Position numbers and translations under genes: made by a program. From Haloterrigena turkmenica DSM 5511 (GTDB lineage: Archaea > Halobacteriota > Halobacteria > Halobacteriales > Natrialbaceae), in the NCBI RefSeq assembly GCF_000025325.1, contig NC_013744.1:620001-684000 (forward strand): a stretch of 64,000 nucleotides of DNA, written 5' to 3'. A model generated the notes under the pieces. That model had not been told where the DNA came from. It did not search any database and saw only the letters and a list, made by a program, of their open reading frames with translations. This document shows positions 1,542 to 17,363 of the stretch, one piece after another (positions within the stretch are counted from its first letter, which is position 1; each line of letters begins with the position of its first letter).

Positions 1542-2636
1542 TTACTCTTCGGACACTGAGTCCTCGAGTTCGAGCTCGTCGACGCACTCCTCGACCGGCG
1601 CGAGCACGTCGGCGGCGATGGTGTAGGGATCGGTCTCGCCCTTGCGGACGGCCTCGACCAGTTCGTCGACGCCGCCGGCGGCCGCGAGCCGGTCTTCGAG
1701 CATGGCGTGGACGTCCTCGCGCAGCAGCGTGCGGATCTCCTCGGCGTAGCGCTGGCGGGTCATCACAGCCCGCGTTCCGGAGTCGACGAGGTACCGCTGG
1801 TGGTCCTCGAGCGCGTCGATAAACGCCTCGACGCCCTCGCCCTTCGTCGCGACGGTCTCGACGATCGGCGGGGTCCACCCCTCGTCCTCGTCTCCGTCCT
1901 CGTCGTCCTCTGGGTCCCAGTCGTCGTGGGCGTCGATGACCTCCTGACTGTGGTGGCCGCCACCGCCGGCGCCGCCCGTGCCGCCCCCCTCGCCGAGCTG
2001 GATCATATCGCGCAGTTCCCGGACGGTCCGGTCGGCGCCGTCCCGGTCGGCCTTGTTGACCACGAAGACGTCGGCGATCTCGAGGATGCCGGCCTTCAGC
2101 GTCTGGACCGCGTCGCCCGACCCCGGCGGAACGAGGACGGTGACCGTATCGGCGGTGCGGACGATGTCGATCTCGTTCTGGCCGGCGCCGACGGTCTCGA
2201 TGATGACCTTGTCCTTACCGAAGGCGTCCATCGCCTTGACGGCGTCCGCGGTAGCCGTCGAGAGACCGCCCAGGGTCCCGCGAGCGCTCATCGAGCGGAC
2301 GAAGACGTCCATGTCGCCGACGGTCGATCCCATCCGGATGCGGTCGCCCAGCACCGCGCCGCCCGTAAACGGTGAGGAGGGGTCGATCGCGATGATCCCG
2401 ACCGTCTCGCCGCGCTCGCGGTAGGTCTCGGCGAGCTTGTCGACCAGCGTCGACTTGCCCGCGCCCGGCGAGCCGGTGATCCCGATCACGTCGGCCTCGC
2501 CGGTGTGGGCGTACAGCTCCGAGACAAGATCCCGATATCCCGGCGAGCGGTTCTCGATCTTCGAGATGACCCGCGCCAGCGCGCGGTGTTCGCCCGCCAG
2601 CAGGTCCTCGAGCAGCGATTCGTGATCCGAACTCAT
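1542..2636 (-). CDS. meaB: Methylmalonyl-CoA mutase-associated GTPase MeaB (ArgK family)
   Basis: A 364-residue G3E-type GTPase that guards and reloads the adenosylcobalamin of methylmalonyl-CoA mutase. The P-loop GSPGAGKST is at about 55-63, IIAIDPSSPF at about 81-90 and the base-recognition motif VNKAD at about 193-197. Odd: residues about 214-253 form a low-complexity insertion, first glycine-rich, then HH, then Asp/Glu-rich, which to my knowledge bacterial MeaB proteins lack. The start at 2636 overlaps the stop of the cobalamin-binding subunit gene by four bases (ATGA), implying coupled translation. An open frame continues upstream to 3017, but that part only shadows the mutase gene. Confidence 0.93.
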   Translation of the reverse strand: MSSDHESLLEDLLAGEHRALARVISKIENRSPGYRDLVSELYAHTGEADVIGITGSPGAGKSTLVDKLAETYRERGETVGIIAIDPSSPFTGGAVLGDRIRMGSTVGDMDVFVRSMSARGTLGGLSTATADAVKAMDAFGKDKVIIETVGAGQNEIDIVRTADTVTVLVPPGSGDAVQTLKAGILEIADVFVVNKADRDGADRTVRELRDMIQLGEGGGTGGAGGGGHHSQEVIDAHDDWDPEDDEDGDEDEGWTPPIVETVATKGEGVEAFIDALEDHQRYLVDSGTRAVMTRQRYAEEIRTLLREDVHAMLEDRLAAAGGVDELVEAVRKGETDPYTIAADVLAPVEECVDELELEDSVSEE

Positions 2637-3049
2637 CGTTTCGGTGCGTTTTCGCGGACGAACTCGACGGTCTCCTCGATCGACGTTCCGGGACCGAAGA
2701 TCTCGGCGACGCCGTCCTCCCTGAGTTCCGCGCGATCCTCCTCGGGGATGACGCCGCCGGCGAGGACGAGCGTGTCCTCCTTCGCGCCGTACTCCTCGAG
2801 CCCGTTCATGATCTTCGGGATGAGCGTGTCGTGAGCTCCAGAGAGAATGGAGATGCCAAGAACGTCGACGTCCTCCTGGACCGCCGCCTGAACGATCTCT
2901 TCGGGCGCTTTGTGCAATCCGGAGTAGATCACTTCGAAGCCGGCGTCGCGAAACGCCCGCGCGATGACGTGAGCGCCGCGATCGTGACCGTCGAGTCCTA
3001 CCTTCGCGACCATACACCGGATGGTTTGCTGCTCGCTCTCGGTACTCAT
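2633..3049 (-). CDS. mcmA2: Methylmalonyl-CoA mutase, small cobalamin-binding subunit
   Basis: A 138-residue B12-binding domain made as a separate protein, as is usual in archaea. The lower-ligand signature D20-G-H22-D-R-G25, the S67-I-L69 motif and G98-G99 are visible; H22 should coordinate cobalt. With the large subunit at 3761-5461 it would interconvert (R)-methylmalonyl-CoA and succinyl-CoA, the last step of propionyl-CoA assimilation. The start at 3049 is chosen because the B12 domain begins within ten residues; a longer frame upstream has no matching sequence and runs into the promoter region of the GNAT gene. It is first in a two-gene unit with meaB. Confidence 0.94.
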   Translation of the reverse strand: MSTESEQQTIRCMVAKVGLDGHDRGAHVIARAFRDAGFEVIYSGLHKAPEEIVQAAVQEDVDVLGISILSGAHDTLIPKIMNGLEEYGAKEDTLVLAGGVIPEEDRAELREDGVAEIFGPGTSIEETVEFVRENAPKR

Positions 3050-3760: not shown

Positions 3761-5461
3761 TCAGACGGGCGTGATGTTCTCTTGGTAGGCGCCATAGTGG
3801 TCCTCGAACACCTGCATGATCTCGCCCATCGAGGCGTAGGCCTTCACCGCGTCGATGATGGAGGGCATCACGTTCTCGTCGCTCTCGATCGCGTCCGACA
3901 GCGCCGCGAGCGTCGCCTCCACTGCCTCGTCGTCGCGGTCGGCTTTCACTTCCTCGAGGCGCGCGAGCTGGCGCTCGCGGGTCGTCTCGTCGACCTCGAG
4001 CGTGTCCGGGGACGTGTCTTCCTCGATAGTGAACTCGTTGACGCCGACGACGACCTCCTCGCCGCGTTCGACCCGCTGTTGATACTCGTAGCTGGCCTCG
4101 CCGATCTCGCGGTGGAAGTACCCCTGGTCGATCCCCTCGAGGACGCCGTCGCGAACCGAGCCGTCGCCCATCTCGCGGATCTCCTCGATGTAGCCCATGA
4201 TCTCCGCCTCGAGTTCGTTCGTGAGTTTCTCGATGGCGAAGCTGCCGCCCATCGGATCGACGATGTCGGCCGCGCCCGACTCTTCGGAGATGATCTGTTG
4301 GGTCCGGAGCGCGACGCGGACGGCCTCCTCGCTCGGAAGCGCCAGCGCCTCGTCGAAGCTGTTGGTGTGCAGCGACTGGGTGCCGCCGAAGACGGCCGCC
4401 AGTGCCTGGATCGTCACCCGGGCGATGTTGTTCAGCGGCTGCTGGGCGGTCAGCGACTGGCCCGCCGTCTGGGTATGGAATTTCATTCGCTTGGACTCGT
4501 CGCGCTCGGCGTCGTACCACTCCTCCATCACGCGGGCGTAGATCCGACGGGAGGCACGGAACTTCGCGATCTCCTCGAAGATGGAGTTGTGACAGTTGAA
4601 GAAGAAGGAGAGCAGCGGTGCGAACTCGTCGACCTCGAGGCCTCGGTCGAGGCAGTCCTCGACGTAGGCGAAGCCGTCGGCGAGCGTGAACGCCGCCTCC
4701 TGGACGGCCGTCGAACCGGCCTCGCGGATGTGATACCCCGAGATGGAGACCGGGTGGAACTTGGGCGTCTCCTCAGTGGCGTATTCGATGGTGTCGGTAA
4801 CGATATCCAGCGAGGGTTCCGGCGGGATCACCCACTCCCGCTGGGCGATGAACTCCTTGAGCATGTCGTTCTGGAGGGTGCCCCGAATCTCATCGCGCGG
4901 GACGCCCTGCTGGTCGGCCAGCGCGATGTACATCGCGTAGACGACCGCCGCGGAGGGGTTGATCGTAAAGGAGGTGGAGACCTCGCCGACGTTGATCCCG
5001 TCGAAGAGGATCTCCATGTCCCGTAGCGTGTCGACCGCGACGCCCTCCTTGCCGACCTCGCCCTCGCTCATCGGAGCGTCCGAGTCCAGTCCCATCAGCG
5101 AGGGCATGTCGAACGCCGTCGAGAGTCCGGTCTGGCCCTCGTCGATCAGGTAGTGAAAGCGCTCGTTGGTCTCCTCGGCGGTACCGAAGCCGGCGAACTG
5201 GCGCATCGTCCACGTCCGCCCGCGGTACATCGTCGGATACGGCCCGCGGGTGTACGGCGGCTCACCGGGGAAGCCGAGGTCCTCGTCGAAGTCGAGATCC
5301 GCGATGTCTTCGGGCGTGTAGAGGCGGTCTACCTCGTGGTTCGAGACGGTCGCGAACCGCTCCTTCCGCTCGCCGTGGGCCTCGAGAATCGGCTCGAGGG
5401 TGTTCTCCTCCCACTCCGCGCGCTGCTCGCGGATATCGTCGAGCTCGTCGTCGTCGAACAT
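3761..5461 (-). CDS. mcmA1: Methylmalonyl-CoA mutase, large catalytic subunit
   Basis: A 566-residue TIM-barrel subunit that binds methylmalonyl-CoA; it lacks the B12 domain, which is encoded at 2633-3049. Family landmarks: RGPYPTMYRGRTWTMRQFAG near 80-100, GLSTAFDMP, SFTINPSAA, NDMLKEFIAQ, ISGYHIREAG and RMKFHTQTAGQSLTAQQP. Start choice: in-frame ATGs lie at 5473 and 5461 and a TTG at 5482. I chose 5461 because the TATA-like TTTAGAA lies 27-33 bases upstream of it, and the protein then begins MFDDDELDD. The two subunit genes are on the same strand but separated by the oppositely oriented GNAT gene. Confidence 0.94.
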   Translation of the reverse strand: MFDDDELDDIREQRAEWEENTLEPILEAHGERKERFATVSNHEVDRLYTPEDIADLDFDEDLGFPGEPPYTRGPYPTMYRGRTWTMRQFAGFGTAEETNERFHYLIDEGQTGLSTAFDMPSLMGLDSDAPMSEGEVGKEGVAVDTLRDMEILFDGINVGEVSTSFTINPSAAVVYAMYIALADQQGVPRDEIRGTLQNDMLKEFIAQREWVIPPEPSLDIVTDTIEYATEETPKFHPVSISGYHIREAGSTAVQEAAFTLADGFAYVEDCLDRGLEVDEFAPLLSFFFNCHNSIFEEIAKFRASRRIYARVMEEWYDAERDESKRMKFHTQTAGQSLTAQQPLNNIARVTIQALAAVFGGTQSLHTNSFDEALALPSEEAVRVALRTQQIISEESGAADIVDPMGGSFAIEKLTNELEAEIMGYIEEIREMGDGSVRDGVLEGIDQGYFHREIGEASYEYQQRVERGEEVVVGVNEFTIEEDTSPDTLEVDETTRERQLARLEEVKADRDDEAVEATLAALSDAIESDENVMPSIIDAVKAYASMGEIMQVFEDHYGAYQENITPV

Positions 5462-5685
5462 AGGTGTGAACATCTCCCCCAAGATTCTAAAGTCTTGCCG
5501 TCGGGCGTTCGATCGCGGTGTCGCGGCCGTTATCGTCGTTCGGGCGTCTCGGCCTCCGGATCGGCCGTCGCGGATCGTACGTCGCGTGGCCTCCAGTCGG
5601 CGGAATCGGCCGCGAAACCGATGTGTCCGCCGTAGACGCCCTCACAGCCCTCAATCGTTAAGTGTCGATGTGTGGAATGGTAGGT

Positions 5686-6120
5686 ATGCACACTGCTCTG
5701 TTACCGATCGACGAGAGCGAGACGCGAGCGAAGCGCGCGGCCGAGACGGTGATCTCCCTCCCGGGCGACCCCGAGGAGAAGCGCGTCGTCCTCCTCAACG
5801 TCTCCGAGGAGACGAAACAGCCCTGGTTGCAGGAGTTCGAGACACAGCGCGGTGAGGGCGTTGAGGAGCCCGAACTCCCGGACAGCACGATCGCGGCCTA
5901 CGAACCGCTCGAGGCCGAGGGAATCGACGTAGAGACGCGACTGGAACGCGGCAACATCGCGGAGGAGATCGTCGCGGTCGCCGAGGAGATCGATGCCGAC
6001 AGTATCGTCATGAGCGGCCGGCGGAAGAGCCCGGCCGGCAAGGTGCTGTTCGGGAGCGTCACGCAGTCCGTCCTGCTCAACGCCGAGCGGCCGGTCACGG
6101 TGTTGATGACCGAGGAGTGA
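5686..6120 (+). CDS. Universal stress protein (UspA family)
   Basis: A 144-residue single USP domain. The nucleotide-binding signature G-x2-G-x9-G-[ST] is visible as SGRRKSPAGKVLFGS in the last third, so it probably binds ATP. The start at 5686 (MHTALLPIDES) is preferred over an in-frame ATG at 5662, because a TTAAG TATA-like box lies about 25 bases upstream of 5686 and the USP fold begins directly there. It stands alone between the mutase and the symporter genes. A distant second copy is at 56590-57075. The physiological role is unknown. Confidence 0.88.
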   Translation: MHTALLPIDESETRAKRAAETVISLPGDPEEKRVVLLNVSEETKQPWLQEFETQRGEGVEEPELPDSTIAAYEPLEAEGIDVETRLERGNIAEEIVAVAEEIDADSIVMSGRRKSPAGKVLFGSVTQSVLLNAERPVTVLMTEE

Positions 6121-6168
6121 GCACGGTTCGCCGCCCGCGTGGCGCGAGACCGCAATCGCAGTGGCCCC

Positions 6169-6333
6169 TCACTCCGCCTTCCGGTACTCGACCCAGCTGA
6201 ACGCCGCGAGGACGATCCAGCCGACGGCGATGAGCGCGGTCACCCGATTGCCGTTGGTCGCGGCGACCGAAGCGGTGCCGAGACCGACGAGGAGCCAGAC
6301 CGCCGTGCCGATTTTGGATCCGAAGAGTTGCAT
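6169..6333 (-). CDS. Small two-helix membrane protein (54 residues) behind the symporter
   Basis: A 54-residue frame starts 13 bases after the symporter stop on the same strand. The protein begins MQLFGSKIGTAVWLLVGL, has a first hydrophobic helix (about 8-24), a short polar NGNR turn, a second hydrophobic helix (about 31-46) and ends EYRKAE. This hairpin shape, the tight spacing to the symporter and normal haloarchaeal codon use make it a likely real gene, perhaps a third partner of the SSS transporter or an independent small membrane protein. I do not recognise its family. Confidence 0.6.
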   Translation of the reverse strand: MQLFGSKIGTAVWLLVGLGTASVAATNGNRVTALIAVGWIVLAAFSWVEYRKAE

Positions 6334-6346
6334 AGCCAGAGAGGCG

Positions 6347-8011
6347 TTACCAGGGCTGAACGCCCCACCAGAGGATCGGGAGCATGAGCACTGCGAGGAC
6401 GATCAGCGGTAGCGCGCTGTTGAAGCGTTCGACGCCGTCATCGGGGTAGCCGTGCATCTCGTTGATGAGCGATGCGTTGTCGGCCGGTTCGACGTCGAGC
6501 GCCTCGATCCGTTCGGCGGCGAGCGAGACCACGACGAACGTGATGATCGACACCGGGAACGCGATCATGATCGCGTCGATCCCGACGGCCGCCGTCAGCC
6601 CTTCGCCGCCGGCGGTGATCCCGCTGAACGCGTGCGGAGAGAGCAGGACGACGGTAACGAAGCCGACGACGCTCGAGGCGATCGCACCGTATCGATTTGC
6701 GCGGGCCGACCAGACGCCGAGCACGATGACCGGCGTGATCGCGGCCGCGCTGACCGCGAACGCCCACAGGATACTCACGACGAGGAACGCGGGCGGATTG
6801 AGCGCGATCAGCGCGATGACGAGGCCAGCACCGATGACGGACGCGTAACCGAACTGCGTCTTGCGATCTTCGCTGACATCGAGTTCGAAGGCTTCGACGA
6901 TGTCGTTCGCGACTGCGGCGCTGATAGCGAGCATGTGCCCGCTCACGGTCGAGAGCCCGCCGGCGACCGCACCGGCGATGACGTAGCCGGTGACCGAGTT
7001 GCCGTTGAACGCGAAGTTGAGATAGAAGATCATCTTGTCCAAGTCGGCGTCGGCGACCTCGTAGCCCTGGTTCTCGAGCCAGAAGACGCCGGCGAACGCG
7101 ACGGAGTACATCGTCGCGAACATCAGGCCGGTCACGAAGATGAACCAGAAGACGGTCTTCCGCCCCGCCTCGACGTCGCGGCTGGTGAAGATGCGTTGGG
7201 CAAGGTGTGGCATCCCGATGGGGCCCAGCGTCATCGCCAGGAACATCGCGAAGTACCAGCGGGTGTCGAACGCCATGCCGAAGAAGCCGGGGTTGGATTC
7301 CTGCATCTCCGGAACGAGGTCACCGTAGCCCAGCGGCGGGAAGAACCAGCCGCTCGAGCCGAGCTGATTGAGAACGAACATCATCGGGATTAACGCCGCG
7401 GTGAGCATGATCCAGAACTGGAGGGCAGAGTTGTAGGAGACGCCCCACATGCCGGCGATGACGACGTATCCCGTCACCAGCGCCGCGATGGCGAACAGCG
7501 AGAGGGTGTAGTCCCAGCCGAGCAGCACCTCCATAATCTGAGCCAGCCCGATGAACTGACCGAGCGCGTACATCAACATCACGAACACGATGAGCAGCGC
7601 CATCACTACGGACATCGTGTTTCCATACCGGTCCTTACAGAACGTCGCCGGCGTGTACGATCCCAGTCGACGGAGCGTCTGGCCGTACAGGATGACGATC
7701 AACGGGATCGACAGCAGGAAGTTCGTCCAGACCGCCAGGAACGGTATCTGGACCGTGATCATCAACGCGACGACGCCCATGAACGTCGCCAGGCTCTCCC
7801 AGGTGGCGGAGATCGCGGAGCCGTTGACGAACGGACCGATGGTTCGACCGGCGACCATGTAGTCGTCCGTCCCCTTGATGTTGTTCTTCATGTAGTAACT
7901 GATCCCGTAGTAGACGACGAACGTCGCCCCGACGATCAGCATGGGAACGAGCAGATCGGTGAACGTCTCCTGGAACGGATACTCGCCGGTCTGCTGTAGT
8001 AGCTTAGTCAT
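6347..8011 (-). CDS. Sodium:solute symporter (SSS family), large subunit
   Basis: A 554-residue polytopic permease with about 13 predicted membrane helices, related to the acetate/pyruvate/proline branch of SSS transporters. Typical features are DDYMVAGRTIGPFVNGSAI after the first helix and a GLSTVSGHMLAISAAVANDI segment late in the core. It would take up a small organic acid with Na+. The start at 8011 gives an 8-base overlap with the upstream small subunit gene and leaves a GGTGAT ribosome-like site 8 bases before it; 8017 is an alternative. Neighbouring dehalogenases and acyl-CoA enzymes fit a carboxylate substrate, but the substrate is not shown by sequence. Confidence 0.92.
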   Translation of the reverse strand: MTKLLQQTGEYPFQETFTDLLVPMLIVGATFVVYYGISYYMKNNIKGTDDYMVAGRTIGPFVNGSAISATWESLATFMGVVALMITVQIPFLAVWTNFLLSIPLIVILYGQTLRRLGSYTPATFCKDRYGNTMSVVMALLIVFVMLMYALGQFIGLAQIMEVLLGWDYTLSLFAIAALVTGYVVIAGMWGVSYNSALQFWIMLTAALIPMMFVLNQLGSSGWFFPPLGYGDLVPEMQESNPGFFGMAFDTRWYFAMFLAMTLGPIGMPHLAQRIFTSRDVEAGRKTVFWFIFVTGLMFATMYSVAFAGVFWLENQGYEVADADLDKMIFYLNFAFNGNSVTGYVIAGAVAGGLSTVSGHMLAISAAVANDIVEAFELDVSEDRKTQFGYASVIGAGLVIALIALNPPAFLVVSILWAFAVSAAAITPVIVLGVWSARANRYGAIASSVVGFVTVVLLSPHAFSGITAGGEGLTAAVGIDAIMIAFPVSIITFVVVSLAAERIEALDVEPADNASLINEMHGYPDDGVERFNSALPLIVLAVLMLPILWWGVQPW

Positions 8012-8306
8012 CGTCATCACCCGGTTCGACTCCGACTTCACCGGTCGGTCCGGCCGCGTCCACTGAGGCCTTCAGTTGCGCTTTTTCCTCCATGATGGAG
8101 GTCGTGATATACCGGTAGTAGATCCAGTACAGGACGAACATTACCGCCGGGCCACCGGCTACCAACCAGAAGTAGTGGAACGGGAACCCCAAGACCGTGA
8201 GATCGGGGGTCCCGAACATGGTGAACCAGATCCCCGCGTTAATGACGGCGATAAGCGCTAACGCAGCGCCCAGTGATGCGAGCGCTTCTTTGGTATGTGT
8301 TTGCAT
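8004..8306 (-). CDS. Small subunit of the SSS symporter (DUF3311/DUF4212-like)
   Basis: A 100-residue protein with two hydrophobic helices (about 10-33 and 43-66) joined by a VLGFPFHYFW motif, like the small partner proteins coded just before SSS permeases. The C-terminal tail ends in GDDDD. Its stop overlaps the start of the permease gene, which argues for coupled translation and a two-component transporter. The upstream DNA (8307-8345) is AT-rich with a TTAATACTT promoter-like box on this strand. Confidence 0.8.
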   Translation of the reverse strand: MQTHTKEALASLGAALALIAVINAGIWFTMFGTPDLTVLGFPFHYFWLVAGGPAVMFVLYWIYYRYITTSIMEEKAQLKASVDAAGPTGEVGVEPGDDDD

Positions 8307-8515: not shown

Positions 8516-9199
8516 CTACAGTCCGAATTCGTCCGCGAGTTCGTAAAACGTCTCGACGGTCAAATCGGGATCGTCGCCGAACGGATCCCTGACTCCGTTC
8601 CCGCGATCGATCCAGACGCCCTGCATACCCGCGTGCATCGCGCCCTGAACGTCGAACGTGGGTCCGGCAACGTGTGCGATCGATTCGATCGGTGTTCCGG
8701 TTCGTCCCGCCGCGTGCCGGTAGATGTCGACGGCGGGTTTGAACGTCCGAATCTCGTGTGCACTGATCGCGTCCGCGATCAGCGACCCGATCTCCGCCAT
8801 CTCGACCATCGACTCGAGCATCTCGGGGTTACCGTTCGAGAGCACGTAGACGTCGTATCCGGCGTCGGTAAGCTGTTCGAGACCGTCCCGAACGTCGTCG
8901 AACGGATCGAGTTCGTGGTACGTCGAGAGGATCTCTTCGATCGTCTCGTCCGAGAGTTCGACTCCATGGTCCTCAAGCGCGAACCGGAGCGCGTCGCGGT
9001 TCATCTCGTAGAACGTCTGGTAGCTGTCGGTGAAGTTACTCACCATCGTATACCTGATCGAGCGACTGCGCCACTGTTCGGCGATCGGACTCACTTGATC
9101 GACGTGGGTTGCGAGCGCCCGCTCGACCGCGAACGGGTCGACGAGGGTTCCGTACGAGTCGACTGTGATCGTTTCTACTGCGGCCGGATCGAACGACAT
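8516..9199 (-). CDS. Haloacid dehalogenase, type II (HAD superfamily)
   Basis: A 227-residue HAD hydrolase of the L-2-haloacid dehalogenase subfamily, which replaces a 2-halogen by hydroxyl through an aspartyl-ester. The nucleophile motif is D14-S-Y-G-T, followed by the Ser/Asn motif VLSNGNP, the Lys motif TFKPAVDIY, and a late AGPTFDVQGAMHAGM segment that matches the subfamily's Asp-bearing last motif. The start at 9199 is supported by an AGTATATTA box about 25 bases upstream and by the nucleophile's position; the frame's longer upstream part has no counterpart in the family. It follows the DehI-like gene on the same strand. Its real substrate may be another 2-substituted acid. Confidence 0.85.
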   Translation of the reverse strand: MSFDPAAVETITVDSYGTLVDPFAVERALATHVDQVSPIAEQWRSRSIRYTMVSNFTDSYQTFYEMNRDALRFALEDHGVELSDETIEEILSTYHELDPFDDVRDGLEQLTDAGYDVYVLSNGNPEMLESMVEMAEIGSLIADAISAHEIRTFKPAVDIYRHAAGRTGTPIESIAHVAGPTFDVQGAMHAGMQGVWIDRGNGVRDPFGDDPDLTVETFYELADEFGL

Positions 9200-9274
9200 A
9201 CGGTACCAATTACCGTCACTGGTAATATACTCTGGGATTACTTCGAATAGGGCGACGGACACGACGACGCGGCG

Positions 9275-10159
9275 TTACTGTAGCGAGCGGACGCCGGCGG
9301 CGTCGACCGTCGTCGCGTACACCGGCAGCGTCGGAACGACGGTCTCGATCGGTCCCCGATTGAAGTCCCGGAACAGGTCCTGTAACTCCGTAACCGCCGG
9401 TTCGTCGATCCCGCGACGCTCGAGCGAGTCGGGATCCAGTCGCGGCACGTACGGAAGCGAGTCGACGTAGTCCGTCACCGCCGCTCGGGCCTCGGTGACC
9501 GCGGTCGAAAACGCGTCGCCCTCGAGGATCGGCTCGAGATCGTCCCACATGGGAGCGAGGTAGCCGGGCCACTGGGCGAGCGTCCGGTAGATACTCGGGA
9601 GACCGTCGTCGAGACCGTGAAACGACTGGATGGCCGGGACGACGTCGGACAAGTCCTCCGGGGGCTCGTCGAACGCGACCATCGTCGGCGGTCGTCCGCG
9701 GTCGGCGTCGAGCCAGTCCGGCAACGGTGCCGTCGCCGCTCGGCTGCGGTCGGGATCGGTTCCGATCGGTTCGTCGGTGAGCGCCCTGTCGACGAGTTCG
9801 AAGAGGACGGCGAGTCGCGGCGCGACGATGTCGTAGGTCGCGAGTTGCCCGCGGAGTTCGCCGTACTCGGCCGGTGTGACCTCGAGTTCGTCGCGACGAT
9901 AGGTCGGTATCGATGTCTCCGCCTCGAGCGCCGAGAGGATGGTATCGCGATAAGAGACGGAGAACCGCCCGAAGCGAGCGGTCTCAAACGCCGGCTTCAC
10001 CTGACCCCAGGCGTATCGAAGGAACTCGGGATAGTTCGCGGTCGTCGTCCGAAAGATCCAGTTGACGATCGGTGCCCGAAACGTGTGTTTGATGTCCTCG
10101 TAGAGGCCACGCTTCCACCCCGTCGCTTCGAGTTCGTACAGTTGCTCGCTCGTATCCAT
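9275..10159 (-). CDS. DehI-family 2-haloacid dehalogenase homologue
   Basis: A 294-residue all-helical protein related to group I dehalogenase DehI, sometimes named halocarboxylic acid dehydrogenase. It has the two pseudo-repeats of that family: one near 20-60 (YEDIKHTFRAPIVNWIFR then YPEFLRYAWGQVKP) and one near 175-215 (FHGLDDGLPSIYRTLAQ then WPGYLAPMWDDL). DehI enzymes hydrolyse D- and L-2-haloacids without a covalent intermediate. A TTTTAACAC box lies about 30 bases before the ATG at 10159. With the type II enzyme 75 bases downstream and the symporter after that, a halo-carboxylate use module is plausible. Many haloarchaea carry this family, so another physiological substrate remains possible. 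Confidence 0.8.
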   Translation of the reverse strand: MDTSEQLYELEATGWKRGLYEDIKHTFRAPIVNWIFRTTTANYPEFLRYAWGQVKPAFETARFGRFSVSYRDTILSALEAETSIPTYRRDELEVTPAEYGELRGQLATYDIVAPRLAVLFELVDRALTDEPIGTDPDRSRAATAPLPDWLDADRGRPPTMVAFDEPPEDLSDVVPAIQSFHGLDDGLPSIYRTLAQWPGYLAPMWDDLEPILEGDAFSTAVTEARAAVTDYVDSLPYVPRLDPDSLERRGIDEPAVTELQDLFRDFNRGPIETVVPTLPVYATTVDAAGVRSLQ

Positions 10160-10346
10160 ACTCGAACAGCGATTCGTTCCGTGTTAAAACTTCTCACCCG
10201 AGAGGGGGAGTTCCCCACGACCGAAATCGTCTCAGCGCTCGAAACGCGAATGTTTCCGCCGAGAACCGATCTGACCAAAGTTCCTTCCCGGTAATAGTGG
10301 TGGTAACGACAAAACATTAATGCGGATATGGTCTGATTGGTCGAGT

Positions 10347-11975
10347 ATGAGTATGGATCACGATACCATAGTAGAGGAATTCGAATGGGACATTCCGGAA
10401 TCGTATACGGTCACGTCGACCATCGACGATCACGCAGAAGCGTTCGGCAACCGAGTCGCCGTGCGGTTTCTGGACGAGGACGATCGTCGCGAAGAGCGGA
10501 CCTACGCCGATCTCCGCGACGACATGAACCGCTTCGCGAAGGGACTCGAGGAACTGGGCGTCGAACGAGGCGATCGCGTAATGCACTTGTTCCCCCGTCA
10601 TCCCGACGCGTTCGCGATTCAACTAGGTGCCCTCACGGCTGGTGCCCTCCTCGTTCCCTGCTCGTCGATGCTCCGTGCGAAGGACATCGAGTTCCGCGCG
10701 AACGACTGTAACGCCACAACGATCGTCGTCCACGAGTCGCTGACCGACATGGTCGAGCCGATCGTCGACGAGACGCCGCTCGAGCGCATTATCGTTCTCG
10801 ATGGCGACGACGTCGACGACGAACAGTGGTCGACGTTCCAGTCCGTCGCCGACGGTCAGTCGACCGAGTACGACGGGCCCGAGCTCGGCGCCGAGGATCC
10901 GATGTCGATCAACTACACCAGCGGGACGACCGGTCAGCCGAAGCCGGTCCTCCACAAGCACCGCTGGATGTACTGCTTCAACCGGGTCAACGCTCCGTAC
11001 TGGTGGGGCGTCGACGAGGACACCGATCTCGAGGACGAACTGCTGTGGGCGACGACCGGCACCGGCTGGGCCAAGTGGTTCTGGAGCCCGGTCGGCGTCG
11101 GGCTGACTACCGGTGCGACACAACTCATCTACGACGGCGAGTTCGAACCCGAGACCTTCCTCGAGATCCTTGAGGACGAGGGCGTCACCAAGCTCTGTGC
11201 CGTCCCCACGCAGTACCGGATGTTCGCTAACGCCGACCTCGAGCGGTACGACGTACAACTGAACGATACGCTCTCCGCCGGTGAGCCGCTCAACCGCGAG
11301 CCGATCGAGCGCATTCAGGACGCGTGGGGCGTGACGCCGCGCGACGGCTACGGCCAGACCGAAACCGTCGCCCTCGTGACGAACTACCCCGGAATCGACG
11401 TCAAACCCGGGAGTATGGGGAAGCCGACGCCGGGCGTCGGCGCGACGATCATCGAGATGAACGAGGAAGAAGAGGTCGAGCCGGGCGAGATCGGCGAAAT
11501 CGCAGTCCCGGTCGATTCGCCGGCGATCTTCGACGGCTACTACGAGAAGCCCGAACTCGACGAACAGAAGCTGTCCGGCGACTACTACCGGACCGGCGAC
11601 CTGGCATCGCGAGACGAGGACGGCTACTTCTTCTTCGAGGGCCGTGCCGACGACATCATCATCTCGTCGGGCTACCGCATCGGTCCCTTCGAGGTCGAAG
11701 ACGCACTCGTCAGCCACGACGCGGTCGCCGAGGCCGCCGCCGTCGACAGCCCCCACGAGGAACGCGGCAGCATCGTCAAGGCCTACATCGTCCTCGCCGA
11801 GGGATACGAGGCCGGCGACGACCTCAAGGACGAACTCCAGGAGTTCATGAAGAACGAGACGGCGCCCTACAAGTACCCCCGACGGATCGAGTTCGTCGAG
11901 GAACTCCCTAAGACTTCGAGCGGCAAGATCCGCCGGATCGAACTGCGAGAACAGGAACAGGAGAAACACTCCTGA
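10347..11975 (+). CDS. Acyl-CoA synthetase (AMP-forming, acetyl/benzoate-CoA ligase type)
   Basis: A 542-residue ANL-superfamily ligase that activates a carboxylate to its CoA thioester with ATP. The phosphate loop TSGTTGQPKP is at about 191-200, the A5-type YGQTE and the A8 hinge YYRTGDLASRDEDGYFFF follow, and the catalytic lysine motif PKTSSGKIRR is near the C-terminus. The start at 10347 lies about 30 bases after the box AAACATTAAT; an upstream in-frame ATG at 10320 would leave no room for a promoter. Downstream genes code for 3-hydroxyacyl-CoA and acyl-CoA dehydrogenases, so the product probably enters beta-oxidation. Confidence 0.92.
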   Translation: MSMDHDTIVEEFEWDIPESYTVTSTIDDHAEAFGNRVAVRFLDEDDRREERTYADLRDDMNRFAKGLEELGVERGDRVMHLFPRHPDAFAIQLGALTAGALLVPCSSMLRAKDIEFRANDCNATTIVVHESLTDMVEPIVDETPLERIIVLDGDDVDDEQWSTFQSVADGQSTEYDGPELGAEDPMSINYTSGTTGQPKPVLHKHRWMYCFNRVNAPYWWGVDEDTDLEDELLWATTGTGWAKWFWSPVGVGLTTGATQLIYDGEFEPETFLEILEDEGVTKLCAVPTQYRMFANADLERYDVQLNDTLSAGEPLNREPIERIQDAWGVTPRDGYGQTETVALVTNYPGIDVKPGSMGKPTPGVGATIIEMNEEEEVEPGEIGEIAVPVDSPAIFDGYYEKPELDEQKLSGDYYRTGDLASRDEDGYFFFEGRADDIIISSGYRIGPFEVEDALVSHDAVAEAAAVDSPHEERGSIVKAYIVLAEGYEAGDDLKDELQEFMKNETAPYKYPRRIEFVEELPKTSSGKIRRIELREQEQEKHS

Positions 11976-12159: not shown

Positions 12160-12576
12160 TCACGCGTCGCCGCGCGCTCGAATGCATTCGTGCATCTCCT
12201 CGGGGAGCGGCGTCGCCTCGAACGCGTCGTCGACGAAGACGAACGACACCTCGCCATCCGCGACGCGTTCGCCGGTCGACGCTCGAGCGATCGCAAACGA
12301 GATCGTCAGCGACGCGGTTCCGCTTTCGAGGACCGTCGTCTCGAGGCGGGCCTCGTCGCCGGCCCGGAGCGGCGAGTGAAACGACGCCGACGCCTCGACC
12401 GCTGGGAGGACGTAGCCGGCCTTCCGGTAGGTCTCCATCGGATGTTCACCGTCGGTGGCGAGTCGGAAGTAGTCGTTGAGACCGACAATTACGAAGTGGA
12501 AGAACCGCGGATAGTAGATGAGTCCGCCCGCATCGGTATCGCTCCAGTCGACGGTGATTTCGGTGGTATGCGGCAT
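12160..12576 (-). CDS. Hot-dog acyl-CoA thioesterase (4HBT family)
   Basis: A 138-residue single hot-dog domain. The N-terminal motif VDWSDTDAGGLIYYPRFFHF carries the usual active-site aspartate of 4-hydroxybenzoyl-CoA-type thioesterases; the later FHSPLRAGDEARLET strand is also typical. It would hydrolyse an acyl-CoA in the cytoplasm. It lies between the acyl-CoA ligase and the 3-hydroxyacyl-CoA dehydrogenase but on the opposite strand, so it may limit acyl-CoA build-up in this set. The substrate is unknown. Confidence 0.87.
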   Translation of the reverse strand: MPHTTEITVDWSDTDAGGLIYYPRFFHFVIVGLNDYFRLATDGEHPMETYRKAGYVLPAVEASASFHSPLRAGDEARLETTVLESGTASLTISFAIARASTGERVADGEVSFVFVDDAFEATPLPEEMHECIRARGDA

Positions 12577-12822: not shown

Positions 12823-13680
12823 ATGGTCCGAGAGACGATCGACCGCGTCGGCGTTGTCGGCGCGGGCACGATGGGCAGCGGCATCGCACAGGTCGCCGCC
12901 GCGCACGACCACGACGTCGTGATGCGTGACATCCGGGAGGAATTTGTCGAGAGCGGTTTCGAGAACATCGACGACAGCCTCGAGCGCCTCGTTTCGAACG
13001 AGACGCTCCCCGAAGACGAGGCCGAGGGCGTCCGCGAGCGGATCGAGGGAACGACCGACCTCGAGGACCTCGCGAACTGCGACCTCGTCGTGGAGGCCGC
13101 CCTCGAGGAGATGGACGTCAAAAAGGACGTCTTCGCGGATCTGGAGGACGTCTGTGACGACGACATCCTGTTGGCAACGAACACGAGTACGCTCTCGATT
13201 ACGTCGATCGCGAGCGACCTCGAGCACCCCGAACGCGTGATCGGCCTGCACTTCATGAATCCCGTCCCGATCATGGAGGGCGTCGAGGTGGTCGTCGGCG
13301 AGAAGACGACCGACACGGCGACCGATCTGGCCCACGAGTTCGCCGAGGGCCTCGAGAAGACGACGTGGGAGGCCGACGACAAACCCGGGTTCGTCACGAA
13401 TCGCATCCTGATGCCGTGGATCAACGAGGGCATTCGAGCGTACGACGAGGGCGTCGCCACGAAGGAAGACATCGACGTCGGAATGGAACTCGGCACGAAC
13501 GTCCCGATGGGACCGCTGACGCTGGCGGATCACATCGGCCTGGACGTCTGTCTGCACGCCTCCGAGACCTTACACGAGGAACTCGGCGACCGCTACAAGC
13601 CCGCCTACCTCTTAAAGCGGAAGGTCGAGGCCGGCGACCTCGGGAAAAAGACCGGACAGGGGTTCTACGAGTACGACTGA
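12823..13680 (+). CDS. 3-hydroxyacyl-CoA dehydrogenase (3-hydroxybutyryl-CoA type)
   Basis: A 285-residue enzyme of the short HAD form. The NAD-binding fingerprint is G13-A-G15-T-M-G18, followed by the ATNTSTL loop (about 118-124) and the catalytic GLH143FMNPVP motif; the C-terminal helical domain ends KKTGQGFYEYD. It oxidises (S)-3-hydroxyacyl-CoA to the 3-oxo form. The start at 12823 is set by the fingerprint and by a TTATTATC box about 25-33 bases upstream; an open frame much longer on the 5' side belongs to antisense of the thioesterase. The following acyl-CoA dehydrogenase is convergent. Confidence 0.93.
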   Translation: MVRETIDRVGVVGAGTMGSGIAQVAAAHDHDVVMRDIREEFVESGFENIDDSLERLVSNETLPEDEAEGVRERIEGTTDLEDLANCDLVVEAALEEMDVKKDVFADLEDVCDDDILLATNTSTLSITSIASDLEHPERVIGLHFMNPVPIMEGVEVVVGEKTTDTATDLAHEFAEGLEKTTWEADDKPGFVTNRILMPWINEGIRAYDEGVATKEDIDVGMELGTNVPMGPLTLADHIGLDVCLHASETLHEELGDRYKPAYLLKRKVEAGDLGKKTGQGFYEYD

Positions 13681-13725: not shown

Positions 13726-14850
13726 CTAGCGCTTGAGGTGGCGCGCGATGATCTTTTTCTGGATCTCGGAGGTTCCCTCGTAGATCGTGGTGATCTTCGC
13801 GTCGCGGTAGTAGCGCTCGACGTCGAAGTCCTTCGTGTAGCCGTAGCCGCCGTGAATTTGGACGGCCTCGTTGGCCACGTCGACCGCCGCCTCGCTCGCG
13901 AAGTACTTCGCCATGGCCGCGGATTTTGCATCGACATCGCCCTCGTTCTTGCGTGCGGCGTCGCGGGTGAGCAACCGGGCCGCTTGAACGTCCGTCTGCA
14001 TATCCGCTAGTTTGTGGCCGATCGCTTGGTGGTCAATGATCGGTTTACCGAACTGCTCGCGGTCGTTCGCGTAGGCGATCGAGTCGTCGAGGGCCGCCTG
14101 TGCGACCCCGACCGCCTGACTCGCGATCCCGACGCGGCCGCCGGTCAGGATCGAGAACGCGGCTTTGAGACCCTCGCCGACCTCGGTCAGTCGATTCTCC
14201 GCCGGAATCCGAACGCCGTCGAAGACGAGCGTCGTCGTATCGCTGGCCCGTAGTCCGAGCTTATCCTCCTTCTTGCCGACCTCAAGTCCGTCGACGTCCT
14301 TCGGGACCAGGAACTGGGTGACACTGTCGGGGTCGCCCCGGTCGGTCTTGGCGAACAGAATGACGACTTCCGCGCGTTCGCCGTTCGTAATCCACTGTTT
14401 CGTTCCGTTGATGACGTATTCGTCGCCCTCGAGACGGGCTTCGGTCGTCATTTCGGCGGGATTCGACCCGGCCTCGGGCTCCGAGAGCGCGAACGCGCCG
14501 ACCGGACGGCCCGTGACCATCTCCGGGAGCCACTCCTCTCTGTGTTCTTCGGAGCCGAACTGGCGGATACACGACGTCGCGAGACAGTGGACGGACAGCG
14601 CCGTCGCGACCGCGAGATGGCCGTACGCGAGTTCTTCGTTGACGATGCTGTACGTGAGGGTGTCGACGTCGAGACCGCCGTACTCCTCCGGAACCGTCAG
14701 TCCGGTGAGGTCGAGCTCCGCGAGACCGTCCCAGACGTCTTCCGGAAACTCCTGCTTCTCATCGGCCTCGTCGACGTCGGCGCCGACCTCGTTTTCGACG
14801 AACTTCCGGACCGTGTTTCGAACGAGCTCCTGCTCGTCAGTGAGCGTCAT
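13726..14850 (-). CDS. Acyl-CoA dehydrogenase (second copy)
   Basis: A 374-residue acyl-CoA dehydrogenase with complete domains: ALSEPEAGSNPA in the middle domain, QIHGGYGYTKDFDVERYYRDAK and the catalytic-glutamate motif YEGTSEIQ at the end. It is shorter than the copy at 319 and probably favours short or medium chains, but this is inference. The start at 14850 (MTLTDEQELV) is supported by a TTTAGTATC box 25-33 bases upstream and by alignment of the first helix; a longer upstream frame is not family-like. Convergent with the 3-hydroxyacyl-CoA dehydrogenase. Confidence 0.92.
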   Translation of the reverse strand: MTLTDEQELVRNTVRKFVENEVGADVDEADEKQEFPEDVWDGLAELDLTGLTVPEEYGGLDVDTLTYSIVNEELAYGHLAVATALSVHCLATSCIRQFGSEEHREEWLPEMVTGRPVGAFALSEPEAGSNPAEMTTEARLEGDEYVINGTKQWITNGERAEVVILFAKTDRGDPDSVTQFLVPKDVDGLEVGKKEDKLGLRASDTTTLVFDGVRIPAENRLTEVGEGLKAAFSILTGGRVGIASQAVGVAQAALDDSIAYANDREQFGKPIIDHQAIGHKLADMQTDVQAARLLTRDAARKNEGDVDAKSAAMAKYFASEAAVDVANEAVQIHGGYGYTKDFDVERYYRDAKITTIYEGTSEIQKKIIARHLKR

Positions 14851-15189
14851 AAATCGGCTATTCGCGGGACAGATACTAAAGTGTGTGATCCGTTGCTGAA
14901 CTGACGGACGCGCTCCCATCGCGAAGCGAACGGACCGTCCTCTCCGTCGGCGCTCCGAATCGACGCCCGCTCGAGGCGGCGGCTCAGACGGGTACTAGTC
15001 ACTCGATACGCTCACGACGTTCGACGACGGTAATCTGGATTTCGTCGGACGGTAGAGCCGTTTGGAGACCCCAAACTGGACGATTGTCCCTCTCCGATCG
15101 ACTCGCATGCGGTTGCGAGCGCTCCGTTTGTGTCGCGGCCAGCCGTCTCAGCGGTATGATTTATCACGGAGAATCACAAAGGACGGCGT
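14851..15189. other. Intergenic region between acyl-CoA dehydrogenase and LLM oxidoreductase
   Basis: About 340 bases without a convincing gene. It holds the divergent promoters of the two neighbours, including the TATA-like box of the dehydrogenase near 14875-14883, and a perfect GTTTG-N7-CAAAC palindrome at 15060-15076 listed separately. Confidence 0.6.
15060..15076. promoter_or_regulatory. GTTTG-N7-CAAAC palindrome (site 1)
   Basis: GTTTGG-AGACC-CCAAAC, a perfect inverted repeat with 6-base arms, 114-130 bases before the LLM oxidoreductase start. Same spacing as the sites in the polyol island. Confidence 0.55.
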
Positions 15190-16203: not shown

Positions 16204-16956
16204 TCAGACGTAGTCTAGGTTCACCTGCGTCACGTTCGCTGCCCGTTTGACGACGTCGGCGATTTCGTTCCGTCGCTCCTCGTCGATCCGGCTCTGGGGC
16301 CCACAGACGCAGATCGCACCGCGTATCCGTTCGTTCTTGTCGAGGACCGGTGCCGCGATACAGACCATTCCGGCGATTCGCTCTCCTTCGTCGACTGCAT
16401 ATCCCTGAGTGCGAATTTGCTCGAGCTGTTCGAACAGAACGTCGGGATCAGTGATAGTTCGAGGGGTCACCTCGACGAGACCGTGTCGGTCGATGAGTTC
16501 GTTGACTCGGTCGTCTGGCATGTGGGCGAGCATCGCTTTCCCCGGTGCCACCGCGTGTAACGGCATTCGAGCGCCCGGATACGCGAAGAGATTGATGGCG
16601 TCCGGTCCCTCCTGTACGGCGAGGATTACTGCTTGATCGTCCTCTTCGATCAGGAGCGTCGCGTGTTCACTGGTCTCCTCGGCGACCGTCTCGAGTTCGT
16701 CGCGAACCGCTTTGAAAATCTCGAGCCGATGTCGCTGTCGGTTGCCGATTTCGAGGAATCGCGTCGTCGTTCGGTACTCTTTCCCTTCCATCGTCACGTA
16801 TCCCGTTGCGACGAGGGATTGTAGGTAATCGTGGACCGTGCTCACTGGCATATCGAGCCGTTCCGCGAGGTCCGAAACCCGTCCGCTGCCGTTTTCCGAG
16901 AGTTCGTCGACGAGTTTGAAAGCTCGTTGAACCGATTTATTCGATATGTTTGTCAT
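16204..16956 (-). CDS. IclR-family transcriptional regulator
   Basis: A 250-residue regulator with an N-terminal winged helix-turn-helix (about 5-70: KSVQRAFKLVDELSE, then DLAERLDMPVSTVHDYLQSL) and a C-terminal effector-binding domain (from about 80) with LIEEDDQAVILAVQEGPD and a late IAGMVCIAAPVLD segment. IclR proteins bind as dimers to palindromes and respond to small metabolites. The start at 16956 is chosen because the HTH begins within ten residues; the long frame upstream (to 17097) is not conserved-looking. Its target may include the LLM gene beside it and the palindromes of this window. A second IclR lies at 40372. Confidence 0.9.
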   Translation of the reverse strand: MTNISNKSVQRAFKLVDELSENGSGRVSDLAERLDMPVSTVHDYLQSLVATGYVTMEGKEYRTTTRFLEIGNRQRHRLEIFKAVRDELETVAEETSEHATLLIEEDDQAVILAVQEGPDAINLFAYPGARMPLHAVAPGKAMLAHMPDDRVNELIDRHGLVEVTPRTITDPDVLFEQLEQIRTQGYAVDEGERIAGMVCIAAPVLDKNERIRGAICVCGPQSRIDEERRNEIADVVKRAANVTQVNLDYV

Positions 16957-17363
16957 AGCAGCCTCGACAACTGTTACACATAGAAGTTTTTCGGCGAATT
17001 CGGATGACTCTCTACGCGATCGGTTGCACCGCTCTCGGTTTTCGACGATTGATTCGTACGCGGGTTCCGACCAATCGGACGCAAGCAACTCATACACAGC
17101 CTAAAATGTATATTTCTCAGAAAAAGTGTAATGACAATACTTGTCGCGACCTGGTAGCGCAATCCGAGATGGTCGGAGTACTGGTATCGGTTATCACGTT
17201 TTATCGACTTCTCAGATGTCGCCGTCTCGATCGAAGTGATCCCTATCCGCTCGGCTGTTTGTCTCGGCGGGGAGATGCAATCATGCCGACTCGATAACTT
17301 ATCGAAACGCGCTTCAAACGTTCTAAAGGGAGCGTTTCCGACTTTCTCGGAAAGTGGTCCGAC

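Follow-up and report, generated by a model that had tools for sequence, protein, structure and literature searches.

Group I 2-haloacid dehalogenases, exemplified by DehI PP3 (3bjx), DL-DEX Mb (4n2x), and HadD AJ1 (5gzy), are proteins of ∼295 aa with an all-helical fold that belong to the PF10778 family. A 6_1 knot has been reported for DehI-family proteins (PMC11184937). According to the HadD AJ1 report (PMC5780510), water is activated in this enzyme by Asp205 and Asn131; the D205N mutant is dead, the N131D mutant loses ∼96% of the activity, and the Y134F and W48A mutants are nearly inactive. The L-2-haloacid dehalogenases of HAD type II, such as L-DEX YL (1jud) and DehIVa (2no4), belong to TIGR01428 and carry an Asp nucleophile with a Tyr, rather than an Asp, two residues further on. 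Nine residues are listed as important in L-DEX (D10, T14, R41, S118, K151, Y157, S175, N177, and D180), and Ser175 and Asn177 are described as catalytically important (PMC4899344); the nine-residue motif of the group A enzymes reads DTRSKYSND (PMC8490876). In public records, DehI-family proteins of the kind described here are called “halocarboxylic acid dehydrogenase DehI family protein” and their HAD counterparts “haloacid dehalogenase type II,” names that may lead a reader to count these proteins as dehalogenation potential. Among the open-licence papers listed in literature searches, none dealing with what the haloarchaeal DehI-family proteins do was found.

The symporter encoded next to these genes resembles the ActP-type and VC_2705-type carboxylate symporters of the SSS family, of which ActP has a small partner protein. 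The closest known relatives of the nearby B12-dependent mutase are the isobutyryl-CoA and 2-hydroxyisobutyryl-CoA mutases (4r3u), in which, as in this locus, the large and the B12-binding subunits are separate; unlike the mutase described here, IcmF (4xc6) is a fusion.

Gene content of the locus

The window, i.e., the entire 64,000-nucleotide stretch of Haloterrigena turkmenica DSM 5511 DNA that was analyzed, comes from contig C2 (698,495 bases) of the 5.44-Mb genome. The first-pass annotation of this DNA had placed an HAD type II gene and a DehI homologue side by side on the minus strand, and profile searches bear out both assignments (Table 1); the two genes are 75 bases apart. The HAD open reading frame (8516 to 9262) extends upstream of the likely start codon, and counting from that ATG puts the nucleophile at Asp14, exactly where it had been placed.

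Table 1. Features of the window around the DehI-family/HAD type II gene pair
Feature	Position	Strand	Basis
B12-binding small subunit of mutase	2636..3049	-	TIGR00640 181 bits, cutoff 57.45
B12-dependent acyl-CoA mutase large subunit, isobutyryl-CoA type	3761..5482	-	PF01642 719 bits; alignments to 4r3u, 2xij
SSS-family sodium:solute symporter (start inferred)	about 6347..8017	-	PF00474 145.5 bits
DUF4212-like small membrane protein, 100 aa, symporter partner	8004..8306	-	PF13937 E 0.00082, 20.2 bits (below cutoff of 30)
HAD type II protein of 227 aa, with ATG at 9199 as the likely start	8516..9199	-	TIGR01428 152.9 bits
TATA-box-like TATATTA	9223..9229	-	24-30 bases before HAD ATG; read from sequence
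DehI-family (PF10778) protein, 294 aa	9275..10159	-	PF10778 121.4 bits, cutoff 28.9
TATA-like TTTTAACA	10182..10189	-	23-30 bases before DehI-family ATG; read from sequence
Acyl-CoA synthetase, MbcS-like	10320..11975	+	PF00501 232.9 bits; NF047394 589 bits (below cutoff of 850)
Thioesterase (4HBT_2)	12160..12576	-	PF13279 51.5 bits
3-Hydroxybutyryl-CoA dehydrogenase (start inferred)	12829..13680	+	NF004474 364.9 bits (below cutoff of 408)
Acyl-CoA dehydrogenase	13726..14919	-	PF00441/PF02771/PF02770; best NCBIfam NF042972 433 bits (below cutoff of 640)

Given that a TATA-like element precedes each ATG by 23 to 30 bases, the DehI-like and HAD genes are probably transcribed as separate leaderless messages, the HAD gene probably from a leaderless promoter of its own and the DehI-family gene likely from its own promoter as well. 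TATAT recurs at about the same position before the HAD gene in the four relatives inspected, and TTAACA recurs at about the same position before the DehI-family gene in the five relatives inspected.

What had been annotated as an “SSS symporter pair” next to the dehalogenase-like genes includes only one SSF symporter; the second member is its small DUF4212-like partner. Similarly to the ActP- and VC_2705-type systems, the window symporter belongs to the SSS family and has the small partner encoded just upstream, with the gene ends overlapping. However, it scores below the cutoffs of both the ActP models and TIGR03648, the VC_2705 family, which is its best NCBIfam match (189.7 bits, cutoff of 320.75). 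DUF4212 was absent from the papers among the open-licence literature matches listed for sodium solute symporters and DUF4212.

An IclR-type regulator gene (16204 to 17097, minus strand) is located at the edge of the island; its best NCBIfam match, BhcR, scores 185.6 bits, below the cutoff of 350. Its product is possibly a regulator of the acid-use genes.

The DehI-family protein

PF10778 proteins are encoded in 56 of the 391 genomes of the class, at 57 loci, with two in this genome and one in each of the 55 others; in a phylum-wide search, they were found in 10 of 392 genomes, this one and nine more of its order. The closest relatives of the window protein are haloarchaeal. In an alignment that is gap-free around the active site, the residues corresponding to Asp205, Asn131, Tyr134, and Trp48 of HadD are Ile190, Ala113, Leu116, and Ile31, respectively. 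The same residues are lost in the other haloarchaeal sequences, aligned in 57 rows that omit the secondary DehI-family matches at loci L066 and L070. The position of the catalytic Asp (HadD Asp205, DehI Asp189) holds Ile (42 rows) or Val (12 rows) in all 54 rows that cover it, the other 3 being gapped there; no Asn is found opposite Asn131 in any of the 57 rows; all 57 have Leu, never Tyr, opposite Tyr134; and the 56 rows covering Trp48 have Ile, Val, Leu, or Phe, and no Trp. In contrast, Asp and Asn are both kept in all four bacterial proteins that were aligned, namely HadD, DL-DEX Mb, and proteins from a Burkholderia and a Roseovarius plasmid; neither of these two plasmid relatives lacks the Asp, with the bacterial sampling confined to plasmid records and solved structures. 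With the water-activating site replaced, the window protein is, judging by its sequence, not a 2-haloacid dehalogenase working by the known mechanism.

An AlphaFold2 model of the window protein (pLDDT of 77.7 and pTM of 0.81, with pLDDT >70 in two of the five models) could be superimposed on D-2-haloacid dehalogenase with TM-scores of 0.74 to 0.78 and Z scores of 25.4 to 25.7; the comparison with 5h00 (Z of 25.7, root mean square deviation of 2.8 over 263 residues) indicates that the helical DehI fold is kept. Judging by the model and the alignment together, the haloarchaeal subfamily retains the DehI fold with a water-activating site now lined largely by hydrophobic residues. Eleven positions (Gly14, Trp34, Arg37, Asn42, Arg71, Gln105, Arg115, His181, Arg192, Gln196, and Trp197) are invariant in 52 of 52 rows, a count that leaves out L067, L070, L074, L082, and L098. 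The haloarchaeal DehI-family proteins are under selection, though not for dehalogenation of the known kind.

An AhpD-like peroxidase function was also considered for the window protein and was rejected, as its translation contains no cysteine. The AhpD-core protein 2ouw gave a weak profile match (E value of 0.0006) and a Z score of 2.6 over 59 residues in the model comparison.

The HAD type II protein

The HAD protein exceeds the equivalog cutoff of TIGR01428, “haloacid dehalogenase type II” (152.9 versus 125.4 bits), and its phmmer matches include 3um9, 2no4, and 1zrm. Besides the Asp nucleophile (D14) and the Tyr two residues on, it shares with the L-2-haloacid dehalogenases the Thr (T18), Arg (R44), Ser (S121), Lys (K154), Tyr (Y160), and final Asp (D183), i.e., seven of the nine important residues. 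It differs from them in having Ala178 in place of Ser175 and Pro180 in place of Asn177 (L-DEX numbering), so that its motif, DTRSKY-A-P-D, is not that of group A, and in belonging to a separate haloarchaeal branch. Both Ser175 and Asn177 are absent from all 17 HAD proteins encoded at the 16 DehI-linked loci (including an N-terminally cut fragment and a second, nonadjacent copy, both at L098): Asn177 is replaced by Pro in 10 of them and by Gly in the other 7, and Ser175 by Ala in 16 and by Gly in the remaining one.

A further 60 haloarchaeal HAD_II proteins (L111 to L170) were hand-picked from the high-scoring end of the match list and are thus not a random sample. Asn177 is present in 29 of these (as Ser-Asn in 28 and Thr-Asn in 1), four (L143, L144, L149, and L158) carry Ala-His at positions 175 and 177, like marine group B, and the 27 others lack Asn177; these 27 may be misnamed as haloacid dehalogenases. 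In the HAD tree, which omits one L098 fragment, the proteins that lack Asn177 and belong to the Gly/Pro/Leu kind make up a single branch (43 rows, 99% support) that includes the linked HADs, and the window-type HADs form a clade of nine rows (98% support), all from DehI-linked loci; this tree and the DehI tree are quick searches without bootstrap, with low support at many forks. As a family, HAD_II is widespread, with members in 280 of the 391 genomes at E values of ≤1e-30; it is found in 55 of the 56 DehI-family genomes versus 225 of the 335 without DehI, raw counts that ignore kinship.

H. turkmenica encodes a second DehI-family/HAD_II pair on contig C1 (G000:C1:2277391-2278516, locus L048), which is divergently transcribed, includes an HAD of the Gly177 type, and shows the same kind of residue losses. 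Beyond these two pairs, no gene in this genome scored over the cutoff of either family, and none of the proteins of the two pairs has the full known 2-haloacid dehalogenase site. The label of haloacid-splitting enzymes is probably wrong for both window genes, because the DehI homologue is without the catalytic residues of its known relatives and the HAD protein without two of the nine. By the same residue check, it is unsafe to apply that label to any of the haloarchaeal DehI-family proteins examined here or to a branch of haloarchaeal HAD_II proteins. Most likely, the HAD protein would use its Asp to attack a 2-substituted or strained carboxylate, a halogenated one not being the main substrate.

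Linkage of the genes in haloarchaea

An HAD_II gene is found in the ∼10-kb stretch around the DehI-family gene at 16 of the 57 loci, spread over 7 of the 25 genera and three families, and in none of the 40 control stretches (P = 7e-5). The corresponding counts, each against 0 of 40 in the controls, are 9 of 57 for the symporter, 11 of 57 for the ligase, and 8 of 57 for the mutase; an acyl-CoA dehydrogenase cluster is not enriched near DehI-family genes (2 of 57 versus 1 of 40). The controls were self-chosen; they come from 40 of the 56 genomes and are located at a distance of 100 to 150 kb along the same replicons. Since the first profiles had been built from clusters near DehI-family genes, which favors those loci, the counts were redone using individual proteins of the window as queries, with the window itself omitted. 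The outcome did not change: HAD, symporter, ligase, and mutase were found at 15, 8, 10, and 7 of the 56 loci, respectively, versus 0 of 40. The DehI/HAD_II pairing is not a chance association. The counts are not independent of each other, as the window and the Natronorubrum/Natronococcus-type loci supply 7 of the 11 ligase and 6 of the 8 mutase cases; ligase and mutase genes occur near DehI-family genes mostly in loci of the window and Natronorubrum types.

Genes in these neighborhoods were predicted with a simple composition-based caller, whose output is rough, with some wrong starts, and which mislabeled or shortened the DehI-family genes at L052, L053, L066, and L074. Clustering of open reading frames from all six frames was discarded because antisense frames chained unrelated genes together. 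The stretches are not all alike in extent: L048 was cut to 10 kb, L058 spans 6.5 kb and L098 8 kb, and L082 stops just past the gene start.

The symporter/DUF4212 pair accompanies the window-type HAD in three gene orders: DehI-HAD-DUF4212-symporter in the window and Natronorubrum types; DehI-HAD with a convergent symporter pair at L084 (family f9); and a symporter pair divergent from HAD-DehI at L101 (family f3). In all, eight of the nine loci with the symporter pair have the window-type HAD; at L079 (Natronorubrum type, positions 5600 to 6500), the HAD gene survives as a 5' remnant, with the reading frames of the DehI-like gene and of both symporter genes uninterrupted. The HAD/DehI/symporter group at L101 comes without the mutase and the ligase, which means that isobutyrate-type acids are less firmly linked to the pair than the symporter is. 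In the DehI tree (which omits L074 and L082), L101 clusters apart from the window, together with two proteins from its own genus. This suggests that either the HAD and symporter genes became associated with DehI-family genes from more than one lineage or the three genes are an old set that was often lost. The divergent arrangement seen at L048 recurs at L068, L069, L071, and L073 in the same genus and at L059 and L061 in another one. Finally, the stretch contains no HAD_II gene at 41 of the 57 DehI-family loci, which speaks against a strict functional tie, and no symporter of this type at 48; the DehI-like protein must therefore also serve some function outside the module.

The acyl-CoA mutase and the surrounding island

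The named neighbors of the pair are acyl-CoA genes and a B12-dependent mutase. Among solved structures, the mutase is closest to the 2-hydroxyisobutyryl-CoA mutase 4r3u (606 bits, versus 483 bits for human methylmalonyl-CoA mutase), and its WTMRQFAGF and IAQREW segments carry Phe and Gln in place of the Tyr and Arg of methylmalonyl-CoA mutase. These two positions presumably set the substrate of the mutase, and the Phe/Gln pair is taken here to mark an isobutyryl-CoA mutase. Assignment as a methylmalonyl-CoA mutase, acting on propionate, was rejected on the Tyr-to-Phe and Arg-to-Gln replacements. The window protein lacks the Asp of the 2-hydroxyisobutyryl enzyme, which is assumed to have a functional role there. 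A paper stating the Phe/Gln signature was not found in the open-licence literature, the accessible parts of PMC11599936 and PMC7176365 included.

The H. turkmenica genome encodes four B12-dependent acyl-CoA mutases (L211 to L214), one with Tyr/Arg and three with Phe/Gln, all of which are assigned to MM_CoA_mutase by Pfam.

Two Natronorubrum species carry the DehI-family gene on a plasmid. An annotated 207-kb plasmid of Natronorubrum aibiense carries the same island set and, in addition, genes for a CoA-transferase, an enoyl-CoA hydratase, a thiolase-like protein, and MeaB. The combination of acyl-CoA genes with a Phe/Gln mutase suggests an island for importing and oxidizing isobutyrate or some comparable short branched acid.

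Possible functions of the module

In the preferred reading, whose chances of being correct appear about even, the DehI-family protein, the HAD_II protein, and the DUF4212/SSS symporter form a linked module inside an island that serves to take up a short carboxylate, probably a branched one (isobutyrate, for example), and to break it down in a CoA-dependent manner, and both dehalogenase-like proteins have been retooled to bind a nonhalogenated carboxylate or to act on it. The symporter would import the acid, the ligase would turn it into a CoA ester, and the isobutyryl-CoA-type mutase would straighten the chain, with beta-oxidation to follow. The HAD and DehI-like proteins could act on a secondary substrate or on a derivative of the acid, which is the weakest step of this scheme.

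More tentatively, the haloarchaeal PF10778 proteins may constitute a functional family of their own, in which the DehI fold now serves a different reaction or the binding of a ligand, and may join the Asn177-less HAD and the SSS/DUF4212 symporter in an undescribed module for uptake and modification of a nonhalogenated 2-substituted carboxylate. If such reuse of the fold is real, the recurrent HAD and symporter partners offer a direct route to the new substrate.

It appears unlikely that the DehI-like protein is a nonenzymatic partner, a pseudoenzyme whose ligand is a small acid or the HAD protein and whose role is to tune the latter. A fold kept after loss of the active site would be consistent with such a role, as would the strong conservation over 52 rows and the repeated pairing with Asn177-less HADs in several arrangements. 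However, most DehI-family genes have no HAD_II gene nearby (the 41 of 57 loci mentioned above), the DehI-like gene and the symporter pair at L079 have intact reading frames next to the HAD remnant, and the invariant or nearly invariant Asn33, Trp34, Arg37, Arg115, His181, and Arg192 could constitute a putative new active site.

The haloacid-use module proposed in the first-pass annotation, in which the HAD protein would be an active L-2-haloacid dehalogenase and the DehI homologue possibly an altered second one, both fed by the symporter, is quite improbable. Its genetic part stands, as linkage to the symporter was seen at 9 of 57 loci versus 0 of 40 controls; its enzymatic part is not supported, as dehalogenase residues are replaced in both proteins. 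The HAD protein does score over the TIGR01428 cutoff and keeps seven of the nine residues, including the nucleophile, Arg44, Lys154, and Asp183, and the group B enzymes, some of which are active, also have Ala at position 175 (PMC8490876). On the other hand, Asn177 is missing, and according to the same source group B has His there, not Pro; the DehI homologue has none of the active-site Asp, Asn, Tyr, and Trp residues; and the named neighbors are acyl-CoA genes.

That the HAD and DehI-like genes are mere passengers of a mobile catabolic island, related neither to each other nor to the symporter, is very doubtful: the plasmid location in two Natronorubrum species, where the neighbors travel together, and the promoter-like element before each gene would fit, but the same genome has a second, divergent pair made of other family members, the pair is also present, differently ordered, in families f3 and f9, and its occurrence in at least 3 of 25 genera by chance has a P value of 3e-5 to 4e-4 (simple binomial, genera taken as independent).
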